This document shows positions 15,085 to 26,524 of a stretch of 28,226 nt of DNA, piece after piece. The notes beneath the pieces are model-generated. The model searched no databases and was not told the DNA's origin. It saw only the letters and a list, made by a program, of their open reading frames with translations. A program made the translations under genes and the position numbers. Source of the stretch: a virus; IMG/VR virus record IMGVR_UViG_3300037109_000037, positions 1 through 28,226 of that record. One strand, written 5' to 3'. How positions within the stretch are numbered: position 1 is the first letter of the stretch; the number at the start of each line of letters is the position of its first letter.

Positions 15085-15302
15085 CCGCGGCGCGCTGCCG
15101 GTCCGCCGTTGGCCTGGTCACGATGGCCACTCGGTGCATCCTGCCCGCAGGGCACGGCGTCGACAACCCGCCGCCGGACTGGTGGCATCAGGGCAAGGGT
15201 CTCTCGAAGTTCCCATACCAGCGCATCGACTGGATGCCGGGCGACCGTCGCGAGTTCGAGAGCGACCGCGATGACGAGTTCGCCTGGGAGGCACTCCGAT
15301 GA
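15081..15302 (+). CDS. Small conserved phage protein with Cys/His motif
   Basis: 73 residues from GTG 15081 overlapping the resolvase stop. The pattern CRSAVGLVTMATRC, then LPAGHG, then PDWWHQGKG, resembles short phage proteins with a C...C...H...WH arrangement that may hold one metal. The C-terminal third is acidic. Function unknown; the ATGA overlap to the next gene shows it belongs to this operon. Confidence 0.6.
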   Translation: MTAARCRSAVGLVTMATRCILPAGHGVDNPPPDWWHQGKGLSKFPYQRIDWMPGDRREFESDRDDEFAWEALR

Positions 15303-16213
15303 CCCGCCGCGAGCTCGGGGCCTGGACGCTGCTCTGGACGCTGATCGCCACGGCGGTCGCCGTCGGCATCGTCGCCGGCTTCCTGGTCCTCTCCGCGCTC
15401 GATCCCGGCGCCGCTCTCGCGGCCTCCCGGCCAGCGGCCATCCCCACGAGCACCGCGTCCCGTGACTTGTCCGGGCCCGCTGCCGCGTCCGGATCGCCGC
15501 TCGCCGGGGTATCGCAGTCGGCGGCTGGGGCACCCTACGGGCCGGCCAGCCCGTCACCGTCGCCCGTCGCGACGGCCACGCCGGGGCGTGGACTCACACC
15601 CGGGCGGACCCCGATCCCCTCCGCCCGGGTCACCCGCACCGTCCGCGGGATCGCGTCGACCTACGGCCCGGCGTTCGGCCCGGGCTGGCTCGCGCTGCCC
15701 GAAGGCGTCGGCGTCCGGGTTCGCGTCTGCGGGCCGGCCGCATGCATCGTCCGCACCAGCAATGACGCCGAGCCGGACCTCGCCATGCAGCGAGCCGGCC
15801 GCATCGCCGACGATCGCGGGCTGGCCGCACTGACGGAGGTTTTGCACGAGCTCCACTCCTGGGACGCGTTCTCCGAGCAGAGCGAGGCCGCCGACATTCT
15901 CGGCGACCGCGCCGTCTTCTGGCCGACCGGGACCGACGAATACCGCGAGTTGATCCGGCAATACCAGGCCGAGATTGCTCGTCTTCGCAAGATCGAAACG
16001 GCGGCGGAGGCGACGGTTGCCGCGGCCAACTCCGTGATCTTTGCTGATCGTCTGATCCTGAACACGTCCGAGATGGAGAGGGCGCTTTCCGTGCTCGATG
16101 AAGTCTCCGACGCTCTTGGGGCTGCCCTCCATCCCATCCCGAAGGCGGACATACCGCTGGACGCCGAGGAGCTTCACCCGAACGCACCGTGGAATGCGGG
16201 TGGCGAAGCATGA
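15299..16213 (+). CDS. Membrane-anchored double-psi beta-barrel-like protein with unusual C-terminal extension
   Basis: 304 residues. A membrane anchor/signal lies at ~10-33 (LLWTLIATAVAVGIVAGFLVL), a Ser/Pro/Thr/Ala linker at ~43-110, then a domain at ~115-170 of RlpA/double-psi barrel style (VRGIASTYGPAFGPGW...VRVCGPAACIVRTSNDAEPD...MQRAGRIAD). The barrel seems to stop early. From ~172 the sequence switches to a different, helical and less GC-rich part with coiled coil IRQYQAEIARLRKIETA (~219-235). This looks like a fusion of a shortened barrel with a second protein. The next gene encodes a full-length relative. Cell-envelope location is predicted; function unknown. Confidence 0.65.
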   Translation: MTRRELGAWTLLWTLIATAVAVGIVAGFLVLSALDPGAALAASRPAAIPTSTASRDLSGPAAASGSPLAGVSQSAAGAPYGPASPSPSPVATATPGRGLTPGRTPIPSARVTRTVRGIASTYGPAFGPGWLALPEGVGVRVRVCGPAACIVRTSNDAEPDLAMQRAGRIADDRGLAALTEVLHELHSWDAFSEQSEAADILGDRAVFWPTGTDEYRELIRQYQAEIARLRKIETAAEATVAAANSVIFADRLILNTSEMERALSVLDEVSDALGAALHPIPKADIPLDAEELHPNAPWNAGGEA

Positions 16214-16836
16214 TCCGCCGCGCCCTCGCCATCGTCGCAGCCCTCCTCGTCCTCCTGGCCGTACTTGCCCTCCATGCCCTCCCCGCGGCGAGCGATGTCC
16301 CGGTGGTGTCCGGCGTGGTGCCGGCGGGGGAGTTCGAGCGCGTCCCATTCATAAGCCGCACCGGCGTAACTGCTGGCTTGTCCAGCGCAAGTGGTCCGGA
16401 CGGCCTGGAACCCGGATACGACCCGGCCACTGGCCCGGGCAACGTCGCTAATGCCGGGAGCCCGAGTCCCATAACAGCGTGGCGGGCCGAACCATCCCGA
16501 ACCCCCTCCCCGTCGGTGCGCGCTGTGCCCAGCGTCGCGCCCGTCCGTGCCGAAGTGCCTACGGCGTCCGTGACGGGGATTGCCTCCTGGTTCGCCAGCC
16601 CGATCGGCGTATCCGCTGCCGGCCCTGCGCTCCGGGCGGCGCTCGGTGCGGGCTGGCGCGGTCGGCAAGTATCGGTGTGCGCCGGCCCGCGGTGCGTGAG
16701 CACGATCCTCGGCGACTGGTGCCACTGCGGCGACCGGCACGGCGTCCCGACCGTGATCGACCTGGACGTGGCGGCGTTCCGCCAACTGGCCCCGTTGAGC
16801 ATCGGCGTGATCGCCGTGGAGGTGACGTTCCCATGA
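16210..16836 (+). CDS. Secreted/anchored double-psi beta-barrel-like (RlpA-like) protein
   Basis: 208 residues, ATG overlapping the previous stop. N-terminal membrane segment at ~5-25 (LAIVAALLVLLAVLALHAL), a long Ser/Pro/Ala linker (~30-118), then a C-terminal domain at ~119-208: VTGIASWFASPIGVSAAGPAL, RGRQVSVC...CVSTILGDWCHC, and TVIDLDVAAFRQLAP...GVIAVEVTF. The GIASWF start, the IDL...F..L stretch and the closing strand match RlpA-type double-psi barrels. The four Cys could form disulfides outside the cell. Such domains bind or cleave glycan in some families. Being duplicated in the replication operon is unusual. Confidence 0.7.
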   Translation: MIRRALAIVAALLVLLAVLALHALPAASDVPVVSGVVPAGEFERVPFISRTGVTAGLSSASGPDGLEPGYDPATGPGNVANAGSPSPITAWRAEPSRTPSPSVRAVPSVAPVRAEVPTASVTGIASWFASPIGVSAAGPALRAALGAGWRGRQVSVCAGPRCVSTILGDWCHCGDRHGVPTVIDLDVAAFRQLAPLSIGVIAVEVTFP

Positions 16837-18025: not shown

Positions 18026-18411
18026 CGACCACGCTCACGCCAGCCGAGGTCGCCGACGCCCTCAAGGTGAGCCGCAGCCTCGTGCTGGCGTGGATCCGCG
18101 AGGGTCGGCTGGGTCACTTCCGGGCCGGGCGGATCATCCGCGTGACGACAGAGGACCTCGCCGCGTTCGTGGAGGCGCATCATGCGCAGGATGGGCAAGG
18201 TGAAGGGTCGCGGGAACGGCCAGGGCAGCATCTACCAGGTGCCCGGGCGTCGGAAGCCGTGGTGCGCGACCATCAGCGCGGGCTGGCGGAACGGCAAGCT
18301 CGTCCGCGTGGCCCGCTACGCAGCGTCGGAGGCCGAGGCCAAGCGGCTCCTGCGACGGCTCCGGGCGGAGCACGCCGAACCACGTCGCTGGGACATCCCG
18401 ACCGTGGCTGA
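18022..18411 (+). CDS. xis: Excisionase-like (MerR/Xis) HTH protein, overlapping the integrase start
   Basis: 129 residues from GTG 18022. The first ~55 residues are a standard Xis/MerR winged HTH: LTPAEVADALKVSRSLVLAW, then IREGRLGHFRAGRIIRVTTE and DLAAFVEAHH. Such proteins bind near att and direct integrase to excision. The frame then runs on for ~70 Arg/Gly/Ala-rich residues inside the integrase gene in another phase, an overlap of up to 230 bases. The tail looks like a shadow of the integrase codons, so the functional part probably ends near residue 58 and the rest may be tolerated. Regulation together with int is implied by the overlap. Confidence 0.65.
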   Translation: MTTTLTPAEVADALKVSRSLVLAWIREGRLGHFRAGRIIRVTTEDLAAFVEAHHAQDGQGEGSRERPGQHLPGARASEAVVRDHQRGLAERQARPRGPLRSVGGRGQAAPATAPGGARRTTSLGHPDRG

Positions 18412-19270
18412 CCATCTCGAGGCGTGGCTGCTCGAGGTCGGCCGCCGGCGGGCGCCGCAGACGACGGCCACCTACCGCTCCGCCGCCGAGACGTGGATCA
18501 TCCCGGCGCTCGGGGAGGTCCGGCTCGACGATCTCACCCGCGGCCAGGTGCAGGCGCTCGTCGACGACGTCGCCGCGATCCGCCGACCCGCCACGGCGCA
18601 GAACGTCCACCACACGATCCGGGCCGCGCTCTCGTCGGCCGTCCGTGACGAGCTGGTGCCGCGCAACGTGGCCTCCCTCGTGGAGGGCCCAGTATCGGAT
18701 CACGCACAGACGGCGATCCTCGAGGGTGACGCGGCGCGCCGCCTGGTCGCCGCGATCGCCGACGACTGGCTGGGCCCGCTGTATGTCCTGCTCCTGGCCA
18801 CGGGTCTCCGGCTCGGCGAGGCATGCGCGCTGGACTGGCGCGACCTCGACCTCGAGCGCGGCACGGTCGCCGTCCGCCAGGGCAAGACGGCCCGCAGCGT
18901 CCGCACCGTGCCGATCCTGGCCTTCGCGCTGCCCGTGCTCCGCGCCCACCGCAGCCGGGCAGCCACCGTCGACCTGGACTCGCCGGTCTTCCGCGGGGCC
19001 CGGTCCCACGACCGCCTGACCGGCTATGTCGCGAGCCAGCACTGGCCGCGGCTGCTCCGGGACGTCGGCTGGCGCCCGATGCGCGCCCACGACCTGCGCC
19101 ATGCCCACGCCAGCCTGCAGCTGGCCGCCGGGACGCCGATGCGGGCGATCGCCGACCAGCTCGGCCACGCGAACCCGAGCCTGACGGCGAACGTCTACGC
19201 CCACCTGGGATCGGGCGCCCTGCGCGACGCGGCGGACCGCGTCGACGACCTCCTCAAGCGGGAAAGCTGA
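18182..19270 (+). CDS. int: Tyrosine-recombinase integrase
   Basis: 362 residues (ATG 18182; ATG 18191 is an alternative). An N-terminal arm-binding type domain (GSIYQVPGRRKPWCATIS...), a SAM-like core-binding domain at ~70-160, and the catalytic domain at ~175-362 with R210 (ATGLRLGEA), K235 region (RQGKTARSVRT), H303-x2-R306 (HDLRHAHA), H329 (LGHANPS) and nucleophile Y339 (ANVYAHL). All catalytic residues are present, so it should be active. It sits immediately before the tRNA-His fragment and repeats, and follows Xis, the usual int-attP module. Confidence 0.93.
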   Translation: MRRMGKVKGRGNGQGSIYQVPGRRKPWCATISAGWRNGKLVRVARYAASEAEAKRLLRRLRAEHAEPRRWDIPTVADHLEAWLLEVGRRRAPQTTATYRSAAETWIIPALGEVRLDDLTRGQVQALVDDVAAIRRPATAQNVHHTIRAALSSAVRDELVPRNVASLVEGPVSDHAQTAILEGDAARRLVAAIADDWLGPLYVLLLATGLRLGEACALDWRDLDLERGTVAVRQGKTARSVRTVPILAFALPVLRAHRSRAATVDLDSPVFRGARSHDRLTGYVASQHWPRLLRDVGWRPMRAHDLRHAHASLQLAAGTPMRAIADQLGHANPSLTANVYAHLGSGALRDAADRVDDLLKRES

Positions 19271-19830: not shown

Positions 19831-19905
19831 CGCCGGCGGGACGGACGGTAAGTCGCCGGGCCCATAACCCGGAGAGACGGGGTTCGACTCCCCGGCTGGC
19901 AACCA
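19831..19905 (+). tRNA. Initiator tRNA-fMet (anticodon CAT)
   Basis: A 75-nt cloverleaf with encoded CCA. Acceptor CGCCGGC pairs with GCTGGCA, except C1 and A72, the mismatch that marks bacterial initiator tRNAs. The D stem has G10-C25, A11-T24 and C12-G23; A11-T24 is another initiator trait. The anticodon stem CCGGG/CCCGG ends in three G-C pairs, the third initiator trait. Anticodon CAT is at 19863-19865. The T arm is CGGGG/CCCCG with loop TTCGACT. Two oddities: position 33 is C instead of the near-universal T, and the D loop is short with a G13/A22 mismatch. It is complete and unlike an elongator tRNA-Met or tRNA-Ile. It may be phage-encoded or, if the region holds host DNA, a host copy. 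Confidence 0.82.
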
Positions 19906-19987: not shown

Positions 19988-20422
19988 GTGACCCTGACCG
20001 ACGATCCGGCCCCGGAGCTGCTGGTGCACCCGCCACGGGACGGCGATGTCGTTGCGAGCATCGGCGCGATCTCCGCCCTCATCCAGAGCTTCGTCTCGAT
20101 GGTCGGCGGGATGGAGGGCCGCCTAGCGGACCAGATCCGCGAGAACGCCGCCGCCAGTAAGGAGCGCTGGGGCCGCTGGGAGGGCGAGTTCAATAGCTAC
20201 AAGGTCGCCACGGATCGCCGCGTCGAGATCGTCGAGGTCCAGCTCAAGAAGCACCTCGACCGCGAGCATGACGACGACCTGATCCTGCGAGCCCGGATCA
20301 AGCCGGTCCAGACAACCGTCGGCTGGCTTGTCAAGAACTGGCGAACGGTCCTGCTGCTCATCGTGTCGATCCTCGCCCTCATCGGCTTCGCCGGCGACAC
20401 GATCCACGGGATGCTGCCGTGA
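19988..20422 (+). CDS. Coiled-coil protein with C-terminal membrane anchor (lysis module)
   Basis: 144 residues from GTG 19988; no ribosome site is visible and no alternative start is better. A disordered N-terminus, a helical/coiled-coil middle (~40-100: SKERWGRWEGEFNSYKVATD, VEIVEVQLKKHLDREHD) and one C-terminal transmembrane helix (TVLLLIVSILALIGFAG). This plan matches XhlA-type phage proteins that act with a holin and endolysin at the membrane. It opens the late operon after attP. Function is by analogy of architecture. Confidence 0.65.
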   Translation: MTLTDDPAPELLVHPPRDGDVVASIGAISALIQSFVSMVGGMEGRLADQIRENAAASKERWGRWEGEFNSYKVATDRRVEIVEVQLKKHLDREHDDDLILRARIKPVQTTVGWLVKNWRTVLLLIVSILALIGFAGDTIHGMLP

Positions 20423-20742
20423 GCGCGATGTCCAACCGCCTACCCACGGGCCCGGGCTCCCGCGGCGGGCACTGGCACGAGCCCGAGTACCCGGCGATGT
20501 ACCAGCGGGCGTGGCGCGCGGCGCACCCCGAGTACCGCGAGCGCGAACGGCTTCGCAGGTTCCGGGAGCGGGCGCGGAGGAACGGTGATCCGGCTGACTA
20601 CGGGACTGCCCCCTCCTATCCGCGCCCGCTCCCCGAGCCCGCCGTCACGTGCGTCTGCGCCTGCGGCTGCCGCGAGCCGGTCGTCGTGACGTGTGGCTTC
20701 TGTCGTGAGGGGATGCACGCCGAAGTGGAGGCAATGGCATGA
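20419..20742 (+). CDS. Small basic protein with C-terminal Cys cluster
   Basis: 107 residues from GTG 20419 overlapping the previous stop (an inner ATG lies at 20428). The N-terminal half is basic and Tyr/Arg-rich (YQRAWRAAHPEYRERERLRR), like short DNA-binding segments of HNH-associated proteins. The end is CVCACGCREPVVVTCGFC...H, a two-knuckle zinc site. Not a known lysis protein. It overlaps the peptidase gene by ATGA. Confidence 0.6.
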   Translation: MSAMSNRLPTGPGSRGGHWHEPEYPAMYQRAWRAAHPEYRERERLRRFRERARRNGDPADYGTAPSYPRPLPEPAVTCVCACGCREPVVVTCGFCREGMHAEVEAMA

Positions 20743-21707
20743 CCGACCAGACCTACGGCTTGGGCGCGATCCAGAGCCCGCCTGACGATCGGGATTACCC
20801 GATCGAGGCGCTGTACGCCGCGCTCGGCGTCGACGTCCCCGTCGCGCTTCCTGCGGTCTACGTCTCGACTCCTGTCCCGCCGGTCCTCAACCAGGGATCC
20901 ACGCCGCAGTGCGTGGCCTTCTCGGCGGCCGGCGTCAAGGACTTCCAGGACTACGACGACCAGGCGCCCAAATGGTGGGACTTCGACCACGACCTCTTCT
21001 TCTCACGCATCGGTGGCGGCCCCGCCGGTGCTGTCGTTCGCAACGCGATGGACCAGCTGCTCAAGGTCGGCTACCCGGTCGTGGGCAACCCGGCTGCGGC
21101 GTCGCTGCACAAGGTCGCCGCGTACTACGCGGTCCCGGTCACGGTCGCCGACATCAAGGCCGCCATCGCGACGTTCGGCGAGGTCGTCTTCGGGATGACC
21201 TGGGCGAACTCGTATTTCGGCCCGAACTCGGCCGGCATCCTCCCGGCGTTCGATTACCAGGCTGGCGGGCATGCGATCCGCTGCCGCGGGTGGGACGACA
21301 GCAAGGGCTTCCGCCTTGCCAACTCGTGGGGCAATGGCTGGGGTGTGAACGGCGAGTGCTACCTGCCGTACAACCAGCTCGGCCACGTCTTCGAGGTCTG
21401 GAAGGCACCCGACCAGCCGTCGCCGACTCCTCCGCCGCCTCCTCCTCCGGCCCCGACGATCTTTCACTGGCACGTCGCGGCAGGCGCCAAGATCCGGGTC
21501 TATCCGCTGCGCCCCGTGACCGGCTGCATCCTCCCGGGCTGGACGATCACGCCCAACCCGACCGCGTTCTCAGCGCCGTGCACGGTGGTCGCCCATCGGG
21601 TCACCTGCGACGGCAAGTCGGGCGCCTTCACCGTCAAGGTCCTGTCGGGGAAGTACTACGGCAAGACGGTCGGCGTCGACCCGGCGAGCGGGACGACCGT
21701 CTCATGA
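20739..21707 (+). CDS. Papain-like (C1A) cysteine peptidase, candidate lysis enzyme
   Basis: 322 residues. The C1A catalytic set is complete: oxyanion Q52 and nucleophile C58 (NQGSTPQCVAFS), H178 (GGHAIRCRGW) and N195 (ANSWGNGWG). There is no signal peptide. A Pro-rich linker (~226-240) joins it to a ~80-residue C-terminal beta-rich domain (HWHVAAGAKIRVYPL...GKYYGKTVGVD) that could bind the cell wall. It is followed at once by two holin-like membrane proteins, and no amidase, lysozyme or transglycosylase is seen in the window. A role in cutting peptidoglycan peptides is therefore plausible; alternatives are cleavage of host or virion proteins. Confidence 0.85.
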   Translation: MTDQTYGLGAIQSPPDDRDYPIEALYAALGVDVPVALPAVYVSTPVPPVLNQGSTPQCVAFSAAGVKDFQDYDDQAPKWWDFDHDLFFSRIGGGPAGAVVRNAMDQLLKVGYPVVGNPAAASLHKVAAYYAVPVTVADIKAAIATFGEVVFGMTWANSYFGPNSAGILPAFDYQAGGHAIRCRGWDDSKGFRLANSWGNGWGVNGECYLPYNQLGHVFEVWKAPDQPSPTPPPPPPPAPTIFHWHVAAGAKIRVYPLRPVTGCILPGWTITPNPTAFSAPCTVVAHRVTCDGKSGAFTVKVLSGKYYGKTVGVDPASGTTVS

Positions 21708-22009
21708 AGTTCACGGCGCTTCGCCCGGTCAGGGCGGCAGTCGAGCGCGCCAAGAACGAGCCGGTGGCCCTCGCCAATGGAGCGGCCGGCGCCCTCGGCA
21801 TCGCCGTCTCCTTTGGTCTGCCCATCACGCCGGACCAGAAGATCGGCCTGACCTCCGCGTTCGTCGGCATCGCGAACTGGTGGGCGCGTTCGCAGGTCGT
21901 GCCCGTGGACAAGCTCGTGCAGGGAACAGTCGCCCAGTCCGGTCCAGGAGAACCCGTGACCGTGACGCCACCGAGCGGTCAGCCGCTCACCATCGGAGGG
22001 ACATCGTGA
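21704..22009 (+). CDS. Holin-like small membrane protein
   Basis: 101 residues, ATG overlapping the peptidase stop. A hydrophobic stretch ANGAAGALGIAVSFGLPI is followed by TPDQKIGLTSAFVGIANWWA and a conserved-looking RSQVVP, the order known from small phage holins of GC-rich hosts (first helix, a TxxQ turn, second helix, R..V.P). The C-terminal ~30 residues are hydrophilic (PVTVTPPSGQPL). A holin role is likely given the neighbouring peptidase, but not certain. Confidence 0.65.
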   Translation: MKFTALRPVRAAVERAKNEPVALANGAAGALGIAVSFGLPITPDQKIGLTSAFVGIANWWARSQVVPVDKLVQGTVAQSGPGEPVTVTPPSGQPLTIGGTS

Positions 22010-22260
22010 GCCCAGCACTCGTCCAGGCGCTGCAGCGCCTCGTCGTGATCTTCGTGGTCGGTGGCCTTAGCGCCGTCGGCCTCAACCTGACCATCCTGAA
22101 TGGGGCGCTCGGGAACACCGCGCTCCTGCTCATCCCGGTCCTGACGGCTGTCATCGACGCCGTTCTCAAGTACCTCGGTGGCCCGACGATCCAGGTCGCC
22201 AATGCCGCTGCCGCTCGGGCAAGGACTGGTGTCGAATCGCCGCCCTTCTGGTCTGTCTGA
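22006..22260 (+). CDS. Second holin-like membrane protein
   Basis: 84 residues from GTG 22006 overlapping the previous stop. Two transmembrane helices: LVVIFVVGGLSAVGLNLTIL and TALLLIPVLTAVIDAVLKYL, then a hydrophilic tail. The size and helix-pair layout are those of class II holins or antiholins. Two adjacent membrane proteins after a lytic-type enzyme is a common phage layout. Confidence 0.6.
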   Translation: MSPALVQALQRLVVIFVVGGLSAVGLNLTILNGALGNTALLLIPVLTAVIDAVLKYLGGPTIQVANAAAARARTGVESPPFWSV

Positions 22261-22789: not shown

Positions 22790-23526
22790 CAGCGACCGCG
22801 ACGAAGCCCGGCGTAGCCTTCGATCCGGCGCTCCATTGCGGCGCTCCCGCCACGAGCTATCGGCGGATGGGCGAACCGTGCCGAGCGCTGAAAGGCAAAG
22901 GGCCGAACGGCCTGTGCTGGCAGCACGATGGGCGCAGCCTGGCCGTCACCTTCGATCCCGCGAAGCACTGCGGGGCCGAGACCAATCCACTCTTCAATGA
23001 CGCCAAGCCGTGTTGCGAGCCGAAGGGCTGGGGGACCGATCACGTCGGATCCGGTCACTGCCGAAAGCACCTCGGGACGTCGCCGAACGGGATCAAGGCC
23101 GCCGCGAAAGAGGCCGCTGAGATCGCCGTCGTCAAGCTGGGGCTGCCGTCCGGCTCGGGCGATCCCTTCGCCCTCCTGGACAAGACCATCCGCTACGCCG
23201 ACAGCTACCTCGACGGGACCGGGCAGCTCCTGGCCGATGTCGTGGAGCGGCGCAACACGACCGTCTCTCTCGAAGCCGCCGCCGCGATCCACGTCCGCGC
23301 CATCCGGCAGGCGTCCATGACCGGGAGTCAGGCGGTCGAGGCCGACGTAGCCGACCGCCGCGAGGCGCGAAATGAGCGGCTCGGCGACTTCGTCCTGCGC
23401 TTCGCGCGGGATCTCATCGCGCAGGTCGCGCCCCCGACAGCGTGGCCGGACTTGGAGGCTTGGGCGACCGGCCACCTTCGCGCCCTCGCCGCCGAGTACG
23501 AATCCCCCAGCGGGCTGGTGCATTGA
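22786..23526 (+). CDS. terS: Probable small terminase subunit
   Basis: 246 residues. Two N-terminal zinc-type repeats, HCGAPATSYRRMGEPC...GLCWQHDG and HCGAETNPLFNDAKPC...WGTDHVGSGHCRKH, then a TSPNG turn. This is the C...PC...W(G)T.H.G.G.C..H motif of one family of phage small terminase-like proteins. The following ~140 residues are helical, with VKLGLPSGSGDPFALLDKTI and a long AIHVRAIRQAS helix. It lies directly upstream of the large terminase and shares one base with it (TGATG). The role is DNA recognition for packaging, by family and position. Confidence 0.72.
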   Translation: MTATATKPGVAFDPALHCGAPATSYRRMGEPCRALKGKGPNGLCWQHDGRSLAVTFDPAKHCGAETNPLFNDAKPCCEPKGWGTDHVGSGHCRKHLGTSPNGIKAAAKEAAEIAVVKLGLPSGSGDPFALLDKTIRYADSYLDGTGQLLADVVERRNTTVSLEAAAAIHVRAIRQASMTGSQAVEADVADRREARNERLGDFVLRFARDLIAQVAPPTAWPDLEAWATGHLRALAAEYESPSGLVH

Positions 23527-25037
23527 TGACGCTCGTCCTGCCGGCCTTCCCGATCCGCAATCCGTTCTCGATCGCCGCCGAGCGGCTCGACGCCAACTCG
23601 GAACGCGCGGCGCTCGACCGCGAGCGCGATGCCGCCCTGGCCGATGTGGAGACCTTCGCCCGGCACTGCAAGATCAAGGCCGCTGAGGGAGCCGAGATCT
23701 CGTTCGCCGCGTCCGGGTGGACCTGGCAGTTCCAGCTCCTGGCACTGTGGGCGGCCAATCGGCTGTGCGTCGTGCTGAAGGCGCGCCAGCTCGGCGTCAG
23801 CTGGCTGTCGGCGATGTATGCGCTGTGGGTCGCGATGCGCCGCCCCGGCCAGTCGGTCTTGCTCATCAGCCGCAACCAGGATGACGCGGAGGAGTTGCTC
23901 GCCAAGGTCGCCTACATGTACGAGCGCCTCCCGGCCTGGCGGCCACGAGCGATCGTCAACGCGCGTTCGATCCGCTTCCCTTCGCTGGGCAGCGAGATCG
24001 AGGCGCTGCCGGCCACACAGAACGCGGGCCGGTCGCGGACAGCCCAGCTGGTGGTACTCGACGAGCACGCGCATCAGCCGTTCGCTCGCCAGATCTTCCT
24101 TGCTCTCAAGCCCGTGGTCGAGTTCGGCCAGGTCCTCTCGATCAGCTCGGCCAACGGCCAGGGCGCGCTCCACTCGCAGATCTACCTCGCCGCCAAGGCC
24201 GGCACGAACGGCTGGCGGGCCGTGTTCATCCCGTTCAGCGCGCACCCGGATCGCCAGGCCGAGGGATGGCTCGAGCGCGAGCGAGCCGAGCTCGAGCAGC
24301 TCGATGACGCGAAGTTCGCCCAGGAATACCCGGCCAACGACGTTGAGGCCATCGTCTCGACCGGCCGGCCTGTCTTCCGTCACCAGGACCTGACACGGCA
24401 GGAGCTCGAGGTTGGGCGCATGGGTGAGCCGGGCGTGACGTACTACCGAGAGCCCGAGGCGGGCCACGTCTACGTCATCGGCGCCGACGTCGGCGAGGGC
24501 CTGACGACGTCGGACTGGAGCTCGGCGACGGTCCTCGAGCGAGACTCCGGCGAGCAGGTCGCGCAGCTCCGCGCGCGCTGGACGCCCGACGTATTCGCCG
24601 CGAAGCTCGACGCCCTCGCCCGCCGCTTCGCGCGCCACGCCGAGCCCGCCAACGCCCACCCGGTGATCGTGGGCGTGGAGCGTAACAACCACGGCCACGC
24701 CGTCCTGCTCGCGCTCACGAAGCTCCACGCGGGCACGGCGCCATATCGGATCTACCGGGCGCCCGACAAGCGCGTCGGCTGGCTCACGACGAACGCCTCG
24801 CGCCCGGTCCTCGTCGATCAGCTCGAGGAGGCGCTGCGCACGAGCGCCCTGACCCTCCGAGACGCCGGCACGGTCGATCAGATGAGCACGTTCGCCTACA
24901 GCGACGACGGCCGGCCCGAGGCCCAGGAGGGCTACCACGACGACGACGTGATGGCCGCGGGCATCGCGGTCCAGCTGCGCCGGCGCGCGTTCGGGCGCGT
25001 GCTCGACGTTCGGCAGCCCGAGGCGGTGGCAGCATGA
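23526..25037 (+). CDS. terL: Large terminase subunit (packaging ATPase-nuclease)
   Basis: 503 residues from ATG 23526. ATPase domain: Walker A-like KARQLGVSW (85-93), Walker B LVVLDE (175-180) and coupling motif SSANGQG (208-213 region). Nuclease domain: GADVGEG (D321), GVERNNHG (E385) and HDDDVMAAG (D472-474), the RNase H-like acidic triad. Everything needed to drive DNA into the head and cut it is present. Length matches ~500-residue siphophage large subunits. It overlaps the portal gene by ATGA, keeping terminase, portal and head genes as one operon. Confidence 0.95.
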   Translation: MTLVLPAFPIRNPFSIAAERLDANSERAALDRERDAALADVETFARHCKIKAAEGAEISFAASGWTWQFQLLALWAANRLCVVLKARQLGVSWLSAMYALWVAMRRPGQSVLLISRNQDDAEELLAKVAYMYERLPAWRPRAIVNARSIRFPSLGSEIEALPATQNAGRSRTAQLVVLDEHAHQPFARQIFLALKPVVEFGQVLSISSANGQGALHSQIYLAAKAGTNGWRAVFIPFSAHPDRQAEGWLERERAELEQLDDAKFAQEYPANDVEAIVSTGRPVFRHQDLTRQELEVGRMGEPGVTYYREPEAGHVYVIGADVGEGLTTSDWSSATVLERDSGEQVAQLRARWTPDVFAAKLDALARRFARHAEPANAHPVIVGVERNNHGHAVLLALTKLHAGTAPYRIYRAPDKRVGWLTTNASRPVLVDQLEEALRTSALTLRDAGTVDQMSTFAYSDDGRPEAQEGYHDDDVMAAGIAVQLRRRAFGRVLDVRQPEAVAA

Positions 25038-26524
25038 CCCCGCCAGTGCTCACCACGCTCTGGATCACCGAGGGATCCGAGGGCAACCGGATCCGCAAGG
25101 CCGACTCGGTCAGCCAGCAGCTCGCCGACGATCCGTTCACGTATTCGAGGGAGGCCGGCGAGGGCGGCCTCGTCCACCCGCTCTACGACATGGACCAGCT
25201 CGCGGGCATGCTCGAGGGGAACACCCTCCACGCCCGCTGCGCCAAGCAGAAGGCGACCGACGTCGCTGGTCGCGGCTTCGAGCTCCGCGTGAAGGCAGAC
25301 GTCGCGGAGGGCGCCGGCGCGGCCGACGAGGCGAAGTGGGGCACGTTCGTCGAGGCCGTCGAGCAGGACGAGCGCGGCGACGAATCGTTCGCGCAGCGGA
25401 TCACGCAAGCCCACCAGGACTTCGAGTCGATCGGTTGGGCGACGCTCGAGGTCGGCCGGACGACCGACCGCACGCCGGACGGCCTGTGGCACGTCCCCTC
25501 GCACACGATCCGGGCGCACGCCGATGGCCGTCGGTTCGCGCAGAAGCGCGGCGGCAAGGCGGTCTGGTTCAAGCGCTACGGTATCGAGGGCACCGTCGAC
25601 AAGGCGACCGGCGCCTGGTCCGACCGGACGGTCTCAGGCGACTGGACCGGCAACGAGCTCCTGGTGATCCGGAACTACACGCCGCGCTCGAGCTACTACG
25701 GCCTGCCCGATCACATTCCGGCGCTGTCCGCGATCGCCGGCTGGCGGGCCCAGGCCGAGTTCAACATCCGCTTCTTCGACAACAACGCCGTGCCGTCCTA
25801 CGCGGTGATCGTCGAGGGCGCGGACGTGTCCCCTGAGTTCGAGCAGAAGATCCTCGACCACTTCCGGACGATCAAGGGCGATCCGCACCGGACCGTCGTC
25901 ATCCCGGTCCCAGGCATGCCCGGCGACGAGGCGACCCAGGCGAAGGTCCGGTTCGAGAAGCTCTCCGTCGACGTCAAGGACGCGAGCTTCCGGCTCTACA
26001 AGCAGGACAACGCCCTCGAGATCTGCATCGCCCACGGCGTCCCGCCGTACCGGGTCGGCTGGCCGATCATCGGGTCGCTCGGTGGCTCGACGGCGCTCGA
26101 AATGACGAAGATCTACAACGACTCGATCGTTCAGCCGCGCCAGGAGACCTGGGAGCAGCGGCTCGACCGCGCGCTCCTCGGAGCCAAGGGCCTGGCCCTG
26201 ACGTCGGTCGAGCTCAAGGCGAAGCGGCTCGACTCCCGCGACATGGCCGCCGACATCCTGGCCACCCAGGCCTTCTGGACCATGGGCGTCATCACGAAGG
26301 GCGCGATCGCTCGGTTCTACAACCTCGACGACCTGCCGCCCGAGCTCGCCGGCGAGTACTTCACCGCTCCGACCCCGGCGCCTGGTCTGGCGTTCGGCGG
26401 GTCCGCCGGCCTCACTGCGATGGACGGCGGGCTGATCGCCAAGCGCTGGAGCGCCGAGGTCCGCGAGCTGGCCGAGCTGCGCAAGCGCCTCGAGGCCTTC
26501 GTCGAAGGGCGGACGGCCGCATGA
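25034..26524 (+). CDS. Portal protein (PBSX-like)
   Basis: 496 residues overlapping terL. The portal core is recognised by LYDMDQLAGMLEGNTLHARC near the start, then IGWATLEVGR, the central RNYTPRSSYYGLPDHIPALS, NIRFFDNNAVPSYAVIV, FRTIKGDPHRTVVIP and YKQDNALEICIAHGVPPYRV, all typical of PBSX/HK97-type portals, the dodecameric ring through which DNA enters. A disordered C-terminal ~40 residues with a helical LAELRKRLEAF end follows. Complete gene, with the expected position between terminase and head morphogenesis. Confidence 0.92.
   Translation: MTPPVLTTLWITEGSEGNRIRKADSVSQQLADDPFTYSREAGEGGLVHPLYDMDQLAGMLEGNTLHARCAKQKATDVAGRGFELRVKADVAEGAGAADEAKWGTFVEAVEQDERGDESFAQRITQAHQDFESIGWATLEVGRTTDRTPDGLWHVPSHTIRAHADGRRFAQKRGGKAVWFKRYGIEGTVDKATGAWSDRTVSGDWTGNELLVIRNYTPRSSYYGLPDHIPALSAIAGWRAQAEFNIRFFDNNAVPSYAVIVEGADVSPEFEQKILDHFRTIKGDPHRTVVIPVPGMPGDEATQAKVRFEKLSVDVKDASFRLYKQDNALEICIAHGVPPYRVGWPIIGSLGGSTALEMTKIYNDSIVQPRQETWEQRLDRALLGAKGLALTSVELKAKRLDSRDMAADILATQAFWTMGVITKGAIARFYNLDDLPPELAGEYFTAPTPAPGLAFGGSAGLTAMDGGLIAKRWSAEVRELAELRKRLEAFVEGRTAA

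Follow-up and report, generated by a model that had tools for sequence, protein, structure and literature searches.

A xylellain-type C1A cysteine peptidase beside holin-like genes as candidate endolysin of a temperate tailed phage

Background

Endolysins of the CHAP and NlpC/P60 families are standard; they are cysteine peptidases with a papain-like fold and usually carry a wall-binding part. Enzymes of the C1A family classically cut L-peptides in proteins. The short bacterial C1A peptidase xylellain of Xylella fastidiosa (PDB 3ois) has the same fold and the same Q/C/H/N set as the phage protein described here, and the N-terminal segment aligns too. The identity is 25-28%, and the phage protein differs in adding a Pro linker, a C-terminal beta domain and holin-like neighbours.

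According to PMC10318531, CHAP and NlpC/P60 form a branch of the papain superfamily different from C1A, and no match to PF05257 or PF00877 was found in the present record and 15 further C1A records. The Lysin A proteins of mycobacteriophages include a modular lysin with a papain-family domain, N5, which is called 'C39-like' in the relevant part of PMC3314691. A papain-family cysteine peptidase is what the N5 lysins have in common with the present protein, N5 being C39-like whereas the protein here is C1A, with PF00112 as the only Pfam match. For phage BetterKatz a 'cysteine protease-like' endolysin gene is mentioned in a portion of PMC4982276; this phage was not among the 19 records matching the C1A protein and is likened by description only. 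ORF382 of the jumbo phage XacN1, likewise compared by description only, is a 'C1 family peptidase' that the authors list as a potential lytic enzyme, without arguing from a lysis cassette in that passage; this phage encodes numerous further wall enzymes (PMC5852040, passage on lytic enzymes). In Arthrobacter phage Mufasa8 a C1A relative, gp26 ('peptidase' in NC_049478, 'cysteine protease' in MN586027), adjoins the holin gp25 and is near the metallo-endopeptidase gp23. The likeness is about 40% identity over only 63 residues of the product of a 645-base gene, which is probably not the sole lysis enzyme there. A phylogenetic study reports xylellain-type C1A genes from Myoviridae and Siphoviridae and is silent on lysis in the sections dealing with them (PMC10380794).

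A C1A peptidase as the lysin of a holin cassette was not found in print in the open PubMed Central literature, where PF00112 together with endolysin gave the classification of the papain superfamily only. The locus described here had been put forward in an initial annotation as a possible new lysin class. This is too strong, since papain-fold lysins are known and xylellain-type C1A genes in tailed phages are published, to judge from the sections of PMC10380794 mentioned above; what appears to be new, on positional evidence, is a C1A peptidase in the place of a holin-cassette lysin. The record is an incomplete genome of a temperate tailed phage from IMG/VR and was analysed whole; its 28,226 bases are referred to as the window.

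Results

Open reading frames were called with custom scripts. Between the integrase and the terminase the window has a string of five genes, in the order coil-TM (a coiled-coil protein with a transmembrane, TM, segment), Cys-rich, C1A, hol1 and hol2, with 4-base overlaps throughout (starts at 20419, 20739, 21704 and 22006). No tail genes were recognised in the window. The features are given in Table 1.

Table 1. Features of the window with position, strand and evidence
Feature	Position	Strand	Evidence or remark
Tyrosine integrase	18182..19270	+	PF00589 E 1.8e-24; temperate phage
Coiled-coil protein with C-terminal TM segment (coil-TM), first in string	19988..20422	+	Peak hydropathy 2.42 at residue 121
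Small Cys-rich protein	20419..20742	+	4-base overlap with each neighbour
Xylellain-type C1A cysteine peptidase, candidate endolysin, 322 aa	20739..21707	+	PF00112, phrog_16701, 3ois, AF2 model
Q52, oxyanion-hole position	20892..20894	+	Invariant in 14/14 aligned phage homologues
C58, nucleophile position	20910..20912	+	Invariant in 14/14 aligned phage homologues
H178	21270..21272	+	Invariant in 14/14 aligned phage homologues
N195	21321..21323	+	13/14 aligned phage homologues; Gln in L093
Pro-rich linker, residues 226-242	21414..21464	+	Sequence; residues 238-242 pLDDT <50
C-terminal beta domain, residues 241-322 (82 residues)	21459..21704	+	Weak structural matches of SH3 type
hol1, weakly hydrophobic holin-like protein	21704..22009	+	phrog_9752 holin E 0.03; peak hydropathy 1.68
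hol2, two-TM holin-like protein	22006..22260	+	Two hydrophobic stretches, peak hydropathy 2.29
Terminase large subunit (TerL)	23526..25037	+	phrog_2 E 1.3e-24 (longer reading 23442-25034); defines phage lineage
Portal protein	25034..26524	+	PF04860 E 1.1e-18

The coil-TM protein, in which the coiled coil was judged by eye, had no match at E 0.1 in either Pfam or PHROG. A gene of this kind is also found upstream of C1A in L088, L099 and the Chloroflexota copies L172 and L174, and the window protein is 28% identical to its counterpart in L012. Copies of the Cys-rich protein were found in L007 (81% identity) and G015 (58%). A complete tRNA-Met gene at 19831-19905, directly after the integrase gene, is a possible copy of the attachment site.

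From its sequence the third protein of the string is a xylellain-type C1A peptidase with an intact predicted catalytic set. Peptidase_C1 (PF00112) matched at E 8.4e-7, with 29.7 bits against a Pfam cut-off of 20.7, and was the sole Pfam family at E <=0.1; no C39-type profile was among the matches. The PHROG phrog_16701, annotated 'peptidase', matched at E 1.1e-19. Xylellain was the best PDB sequence match of the protein (E 1.3e-14) and was matched by a profile of 14 relatives at E 9.7e-21. Q52, C58, H178 and N195 occupy the papain positions in papain order, and their conservation among the homologues rules out a chance reading frame, each residue being kept in 14/14 or 13/14. The AF2 model has a mean pLDDT of 81.4, and the predicted papain fold superposes on 3ois with Z 25.9 and rmsd 3.1 over 222 aligned residues (VIA). 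Xylellain and cathepsins are the best structural matches, among which there is also Cwp84 (4ci7), a surface-layer-associated cysteine protease. No clear signal peptide or TM segment was found in the sequence.

The Pro linker and the separate C-terminal beta domain, like the catalytic set already proposed in the initial annotation, were borne out. Folded alone by AF2, the domain has a pLDDT of 95.5 and consists of strands except for one three-residue helical turn. The beta fold is therefore predicted with confidence; for wall binding, which modelling of the domain had been expected to address, the matches of SH3 type go only to Z 4.0. No VIA row was found at Z 5 or more, and Foldseek gave no match at E <=0.001. 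The top VIA rows, with titles mostly of cell-wall SH3-type or surface-layer proteins, were SlpA, SlpX, lysostaphin, ALE-1, Ly7917, LysF1 and PlySb, which is no more than suggestive of an SH3-like, putatively wall-binding domain. For the tails found in L014 and L015 the relationship to this domain is too weak for use. Among the C1A relatives the C-terminal part varies, being of the window type, SH3_3-like (L099 and L101), Cu_amine_oxidN1 (L102) or absent (L090, L091 and L094). The SH3_3 matches in the tails of L099 (E 7.2e-5) and L101 (E 0.005) are both under the Pfam cut-off; in addition, the L099 tail has a match at E 0.001 to the end of a PHROG for amidases. In L102 (5899-6969) the C1A part is fused to Cu_amine_oxidN1 (E 1.7e-12) and a coil-TM gene follows.

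Two holin-like genes had been described downstream of the peptidase. For hol2, with its two hydrophobic stretches, the description holds; hol1 is a weak case, the low-scoring holin PHROG in Table 1 being its sole family support. C1A, hol1 and hol2 recur in the same order in L168/G014, which has an otherwise unrelated phage backbone. The identities to the window are 65% for the catalytic domain, 90% for the C-terminal domain, 67% for hol1 and 62% for hol2, and the only other match among the window proteins compared was a TerL stretch of 31% identity. A C1A relative of 41% identity has a recognised holin after it. The gene after the C1A gene of L016 is a PHROG holin (phrog_1299, E 1.3e-12), which the counterpart in L097 matches at E 3.8e-4. 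The holin-like neighbour of the L012 amidase shares 84% identity with the corresponding neighbour of C1A in L099 and 79% with that in L097. This is what a mobile lysis cassette would look like, in which a C1A gene and two membrane genes travel together and the enzyme heads are exchangeable.

The slot of the peptidase gene was compared within the terminase lineage, defined as the relatives found by TerL search at 62-100% identity (L006 to L018). It was readable in ten viruses (the window, L007, L009, L010, L011, L012, L014, L015, L016 and L018) and not covered in L008, L013 and L017, which were dropped. L002, L006, L087 and L167 are not independent of the window because they represent one contig, the compared genes being 100% identical. 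The slot holds C1A in three of the ten (the window, L010 and L016), Amidase_2 in L012 (PF01510, E 2.9e-12) and proteins without family assignment in the remaining six; no C1A match was found in the 14,879 bases of L012 that were read. The C1A protein thus occupies the slot that a known endolysin family has in a relative. The description of the locus as an endolysin position is upheld by this exchange, by the near-identical holin-like genes that go with amidase or C1A, and by the joint movement of C1A and its membrane genes.

For the six unassigned slot proteins (L007, L009, L011, L014, L015 and L018) Pfam gave no family in the four tested (L007, L014, L015 and L018), PHROG nothing useful for five, NCBIfam nothing for four, and the PDB search no useful match for two. 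A search for relatives gave none new for L014 and one new for L007/L011. The L009 protein was judged by eye and BLAST only. By eye, the unassigned proteins show in succession a Cys, a His with GAHA- or GHG-like surroundings and an Asp, and a C39-like nature is our guess.

That the window has no usual endolysin was confirmed for Amidase_2, CHAP, M23, NLPC_P60 and M15_3, with 0 matches, and no lysin was among the 25 of 36 families listed by Pfam for 48 window ORFs. In 17 records (L012 plus 16 with C1A, the window among them) Amidase_2 was found once (L012) and M15_3 once (L101), and CHAP, M23 and NLPC_P60 in none, these five being the lysin families searched across all 17. The possibility of a canonical endolysin elsewhere in the genome was checked on G004, a near-complete relative of 40,358 bases, which has C1A in the same slot and spans lysis genes, terminase, head, tape measure, tail, early genes and integrase. 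No lysin visible to Pfam was found among the 17 families obtained for 48 of its 52 called ORFs (four short ORFs and the last 358 bases lay outside the scan). Several tail ORFs of G004 gave no family and may include an unrecognised lysin. Just after the portal region, in the head module, G004 has an XkdF-type serine head protease of its own (PF14550, E 7.6e-21).

Searching IMG/VR with an alignment of three sequences yielded 88 relatives; 80 loci were retained and fell into 60 clusters (80% identity). In 17 of the 19 closer clusters C1A has a small TM ORF as its immediate neighbour, the frequency among control ORFs being 28 of 121 (Fisher p 3.7e-8); closer means E about 1e-15 or better, a threshold set after viewing the table, and TM was called with our own Kyte-Doolittle cut-off. 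The two closer clusters without such a gene directly beside C1A are L095 and L101. Over all clusters the count is 38/60, the 60 including nine near-duplicate short matches with the same neighbour (L143-L151); many of the distant relatives have no small TM ORF there. In L101 (6055-7977) a C1A protein with the SH3_3-like tail is followed by a protein with M15_3 and PG_binding_1 and by small TM genes, forming a two-enzyme lysis cassette. In L101 and in Mufasa8 a conventional wall enzyme is near C1A, which can thus also have the part of a second, maybe accessory, enzyme.

The host phylum is probably Chloroflexota, as judged from sequence matches. The best named match of TerL, at 55%, is 'Chloroflexi bacterium isolate palsa_1032', a MAG (L166); no other named genome has a close TerL. 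Upstream of TerL this MAG has a gene of primase-helicase type rather than a lysis cassette. At E 1e-20 TerL was found in only 2/177 genomes of the palsa_1032 class, and since the MAG itself has no C1A match the assignment to this class is only moderate. C1A relatives up to 54% identical were found in 8/177 genomes of the class, several flanked by coil-TM and small TM genes. The matches have internal stop codons in three of the eight, and in a fourth (G034, with four to five matches, five by place) a copy is frame-broken. No relative was found with the C1A alignment in named genomes (two degenerate patterns only, a weak search).

Chromosomal cassettes with a TM or coil-TM gene, C1A and a TM gene of 60-61 residues are present in L183 (8778-10287), L185 (8348-9720), L186 (3425-4793) and L187 (8948-10448). 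Those of L183 and L187 have serine recombinase genes nearby, along with genes for large secreted proteins (VWA domain; a weak GDSL lipase match). No obvious head or tail genes were seen in the stretches read of the four. The cassettes may be prophage remnants or a holin-based release system; they look like remnants of lysis genes because the TM partners are retained.

Mur_ligase_M was found in 100/101 genomes of the inferred host class, with 2 to 9 matches each. The family includes folate enzymes too; several copies per genome indicate a normal peptidoglycan pathway. With the amidase of the sister phage L012, this led to the rejection of a host without peptidoglycan, and the idea in the initial annotation of a lysin suited to an unusual cell wall is not supported, on the same two grounds.

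Discussion

The C1A protein is predicted to be a host-lysis enzyme, probably, because it is found beside holin-like genes at a place where a relative has an ordinary wall-cutting enzyme. That it is the endolysin of the phage, or else the chief catalytic component in lysis, is given a rough probability of 0.74. The C1A head would replace a canonical peptidoglycan hydrolase and be connected through the Pro linker to a small tail of beta structure, which is probably SH3-like and would bind the wall. Expressed late, the enzyme would stay in the cytoplasm until hol1 and hol2, perhaps with the coil-TM protein, open the membrane. Once released through the holins it would bind the wall and cut peptide bonds by means of C58, H178 and N195, and the cell would lyse. 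The substrate would most likely be the stem or bridge peptides of peptidoglycan, the alternative being a wall protein. The classical protein substrates of C1A enzymes, the second wall enzyme in L101 and Mufasa8 and the weakness of hol1 count against the endolysin reading. So do the weak structural matches of the C-terminal domain, the clusters L095 and L101 and the many distant relatives in which C1A lacks an adjoining small TM gene, and the chance that an unrecognised lysin is present in G004 or in the missing part of the genome.

The first two of these points fit a lysis enzyme with a protein substrate, which after holin release would strip S-layer or wall-linked proteins, the peptidoglycan being left to host autolysins or to a hydrolase not yet recognised. 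The protease pedigree of C1A, with xylellain and cathepsins as best matches and Cwp84 among the others, agrees with such a role. Although the foremost of the alternatives, it is nevertheless unlikely in view of the amidase in the same slot of L012 and the near-identical partner genes that accompany either enzyme; G004, moreover, has no second recognisable lysin, and the inferred host class has peptidoglycan-type genes. Further still, phages of Chloroflexota might lyse the host by protease alone, a holin-released C1A cutting a protein essential to the wall so that no peptidoglycan hydrolase is needed. This would be a distinct mobile system, also present on some Chloroflexota chromosomes, and we regard it as a rather improbable one. 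Under the protease-alone scheme the conserved N-terminal segment SPxDxRD would perhaps keep the cytoplasmic enzyme inactive, as happens in C1A zymogens.

Functions outside lysis agree less well with the genes around C1A. Phage head assembly uses proteases and the gene stands between integrase and terminase, as a virion or head-maturation protease could; the coupling to membrane genes and the amidase in the slot of a relative, which has no head function, make this role hardly credible, and it was rejected on the separate XkdF-type head protease of G004. The Chloroflexota cassettes of TM gene, C1A and small TM gene, in places beside serine recombinases and large secreted proteins, could instead point to a cargo protease (moron) acting on proteins of the host or of competitors, or to a protease secreted by the cell and borrowed by phages. 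Since the chromosomal copies are partly degraded, by stops or a broken frame, and the slot of the phage C1A holds an amidase in a relative, we consider this very improbable.

If the endolysin reading is right, C1A, the papain family proper, known mainly from protein turnover, joins the folds that phages use for opening cells, and a lysis system is obtained for the phages of soil Chloroflexota, which are poorly cultured and about whose envelopes little is known. The label of phrog_16701 in PHROGs is 'peptidase, other', so that endolysin surveys relying on known families would miss such lysins. The prediction concerns one gene, names its catalytic residue and lends itself to a test in a laboratory strain.

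Two adjacent window proteins outside the string (15299-16213 and 16189-16836), with relatives in L007 and L015, combine a hydrophobic N-terminal stretch with a small C-terminal domain that contains Cys and whose motif we take to resemble RlpA-like double-psi barrels. In the PDB search the sole match of one of them was 5ntb, 'Papain inhibitor', at E 0.12 (E 0.2 with a four-sequence profile), which is not significant; a wall enzyme or an inhibitor would both be relevant to the question of lysis. C1A relatives of 25-27% identity are also present in Lak megaphages, in the 14 Prevotella Lak records matched.
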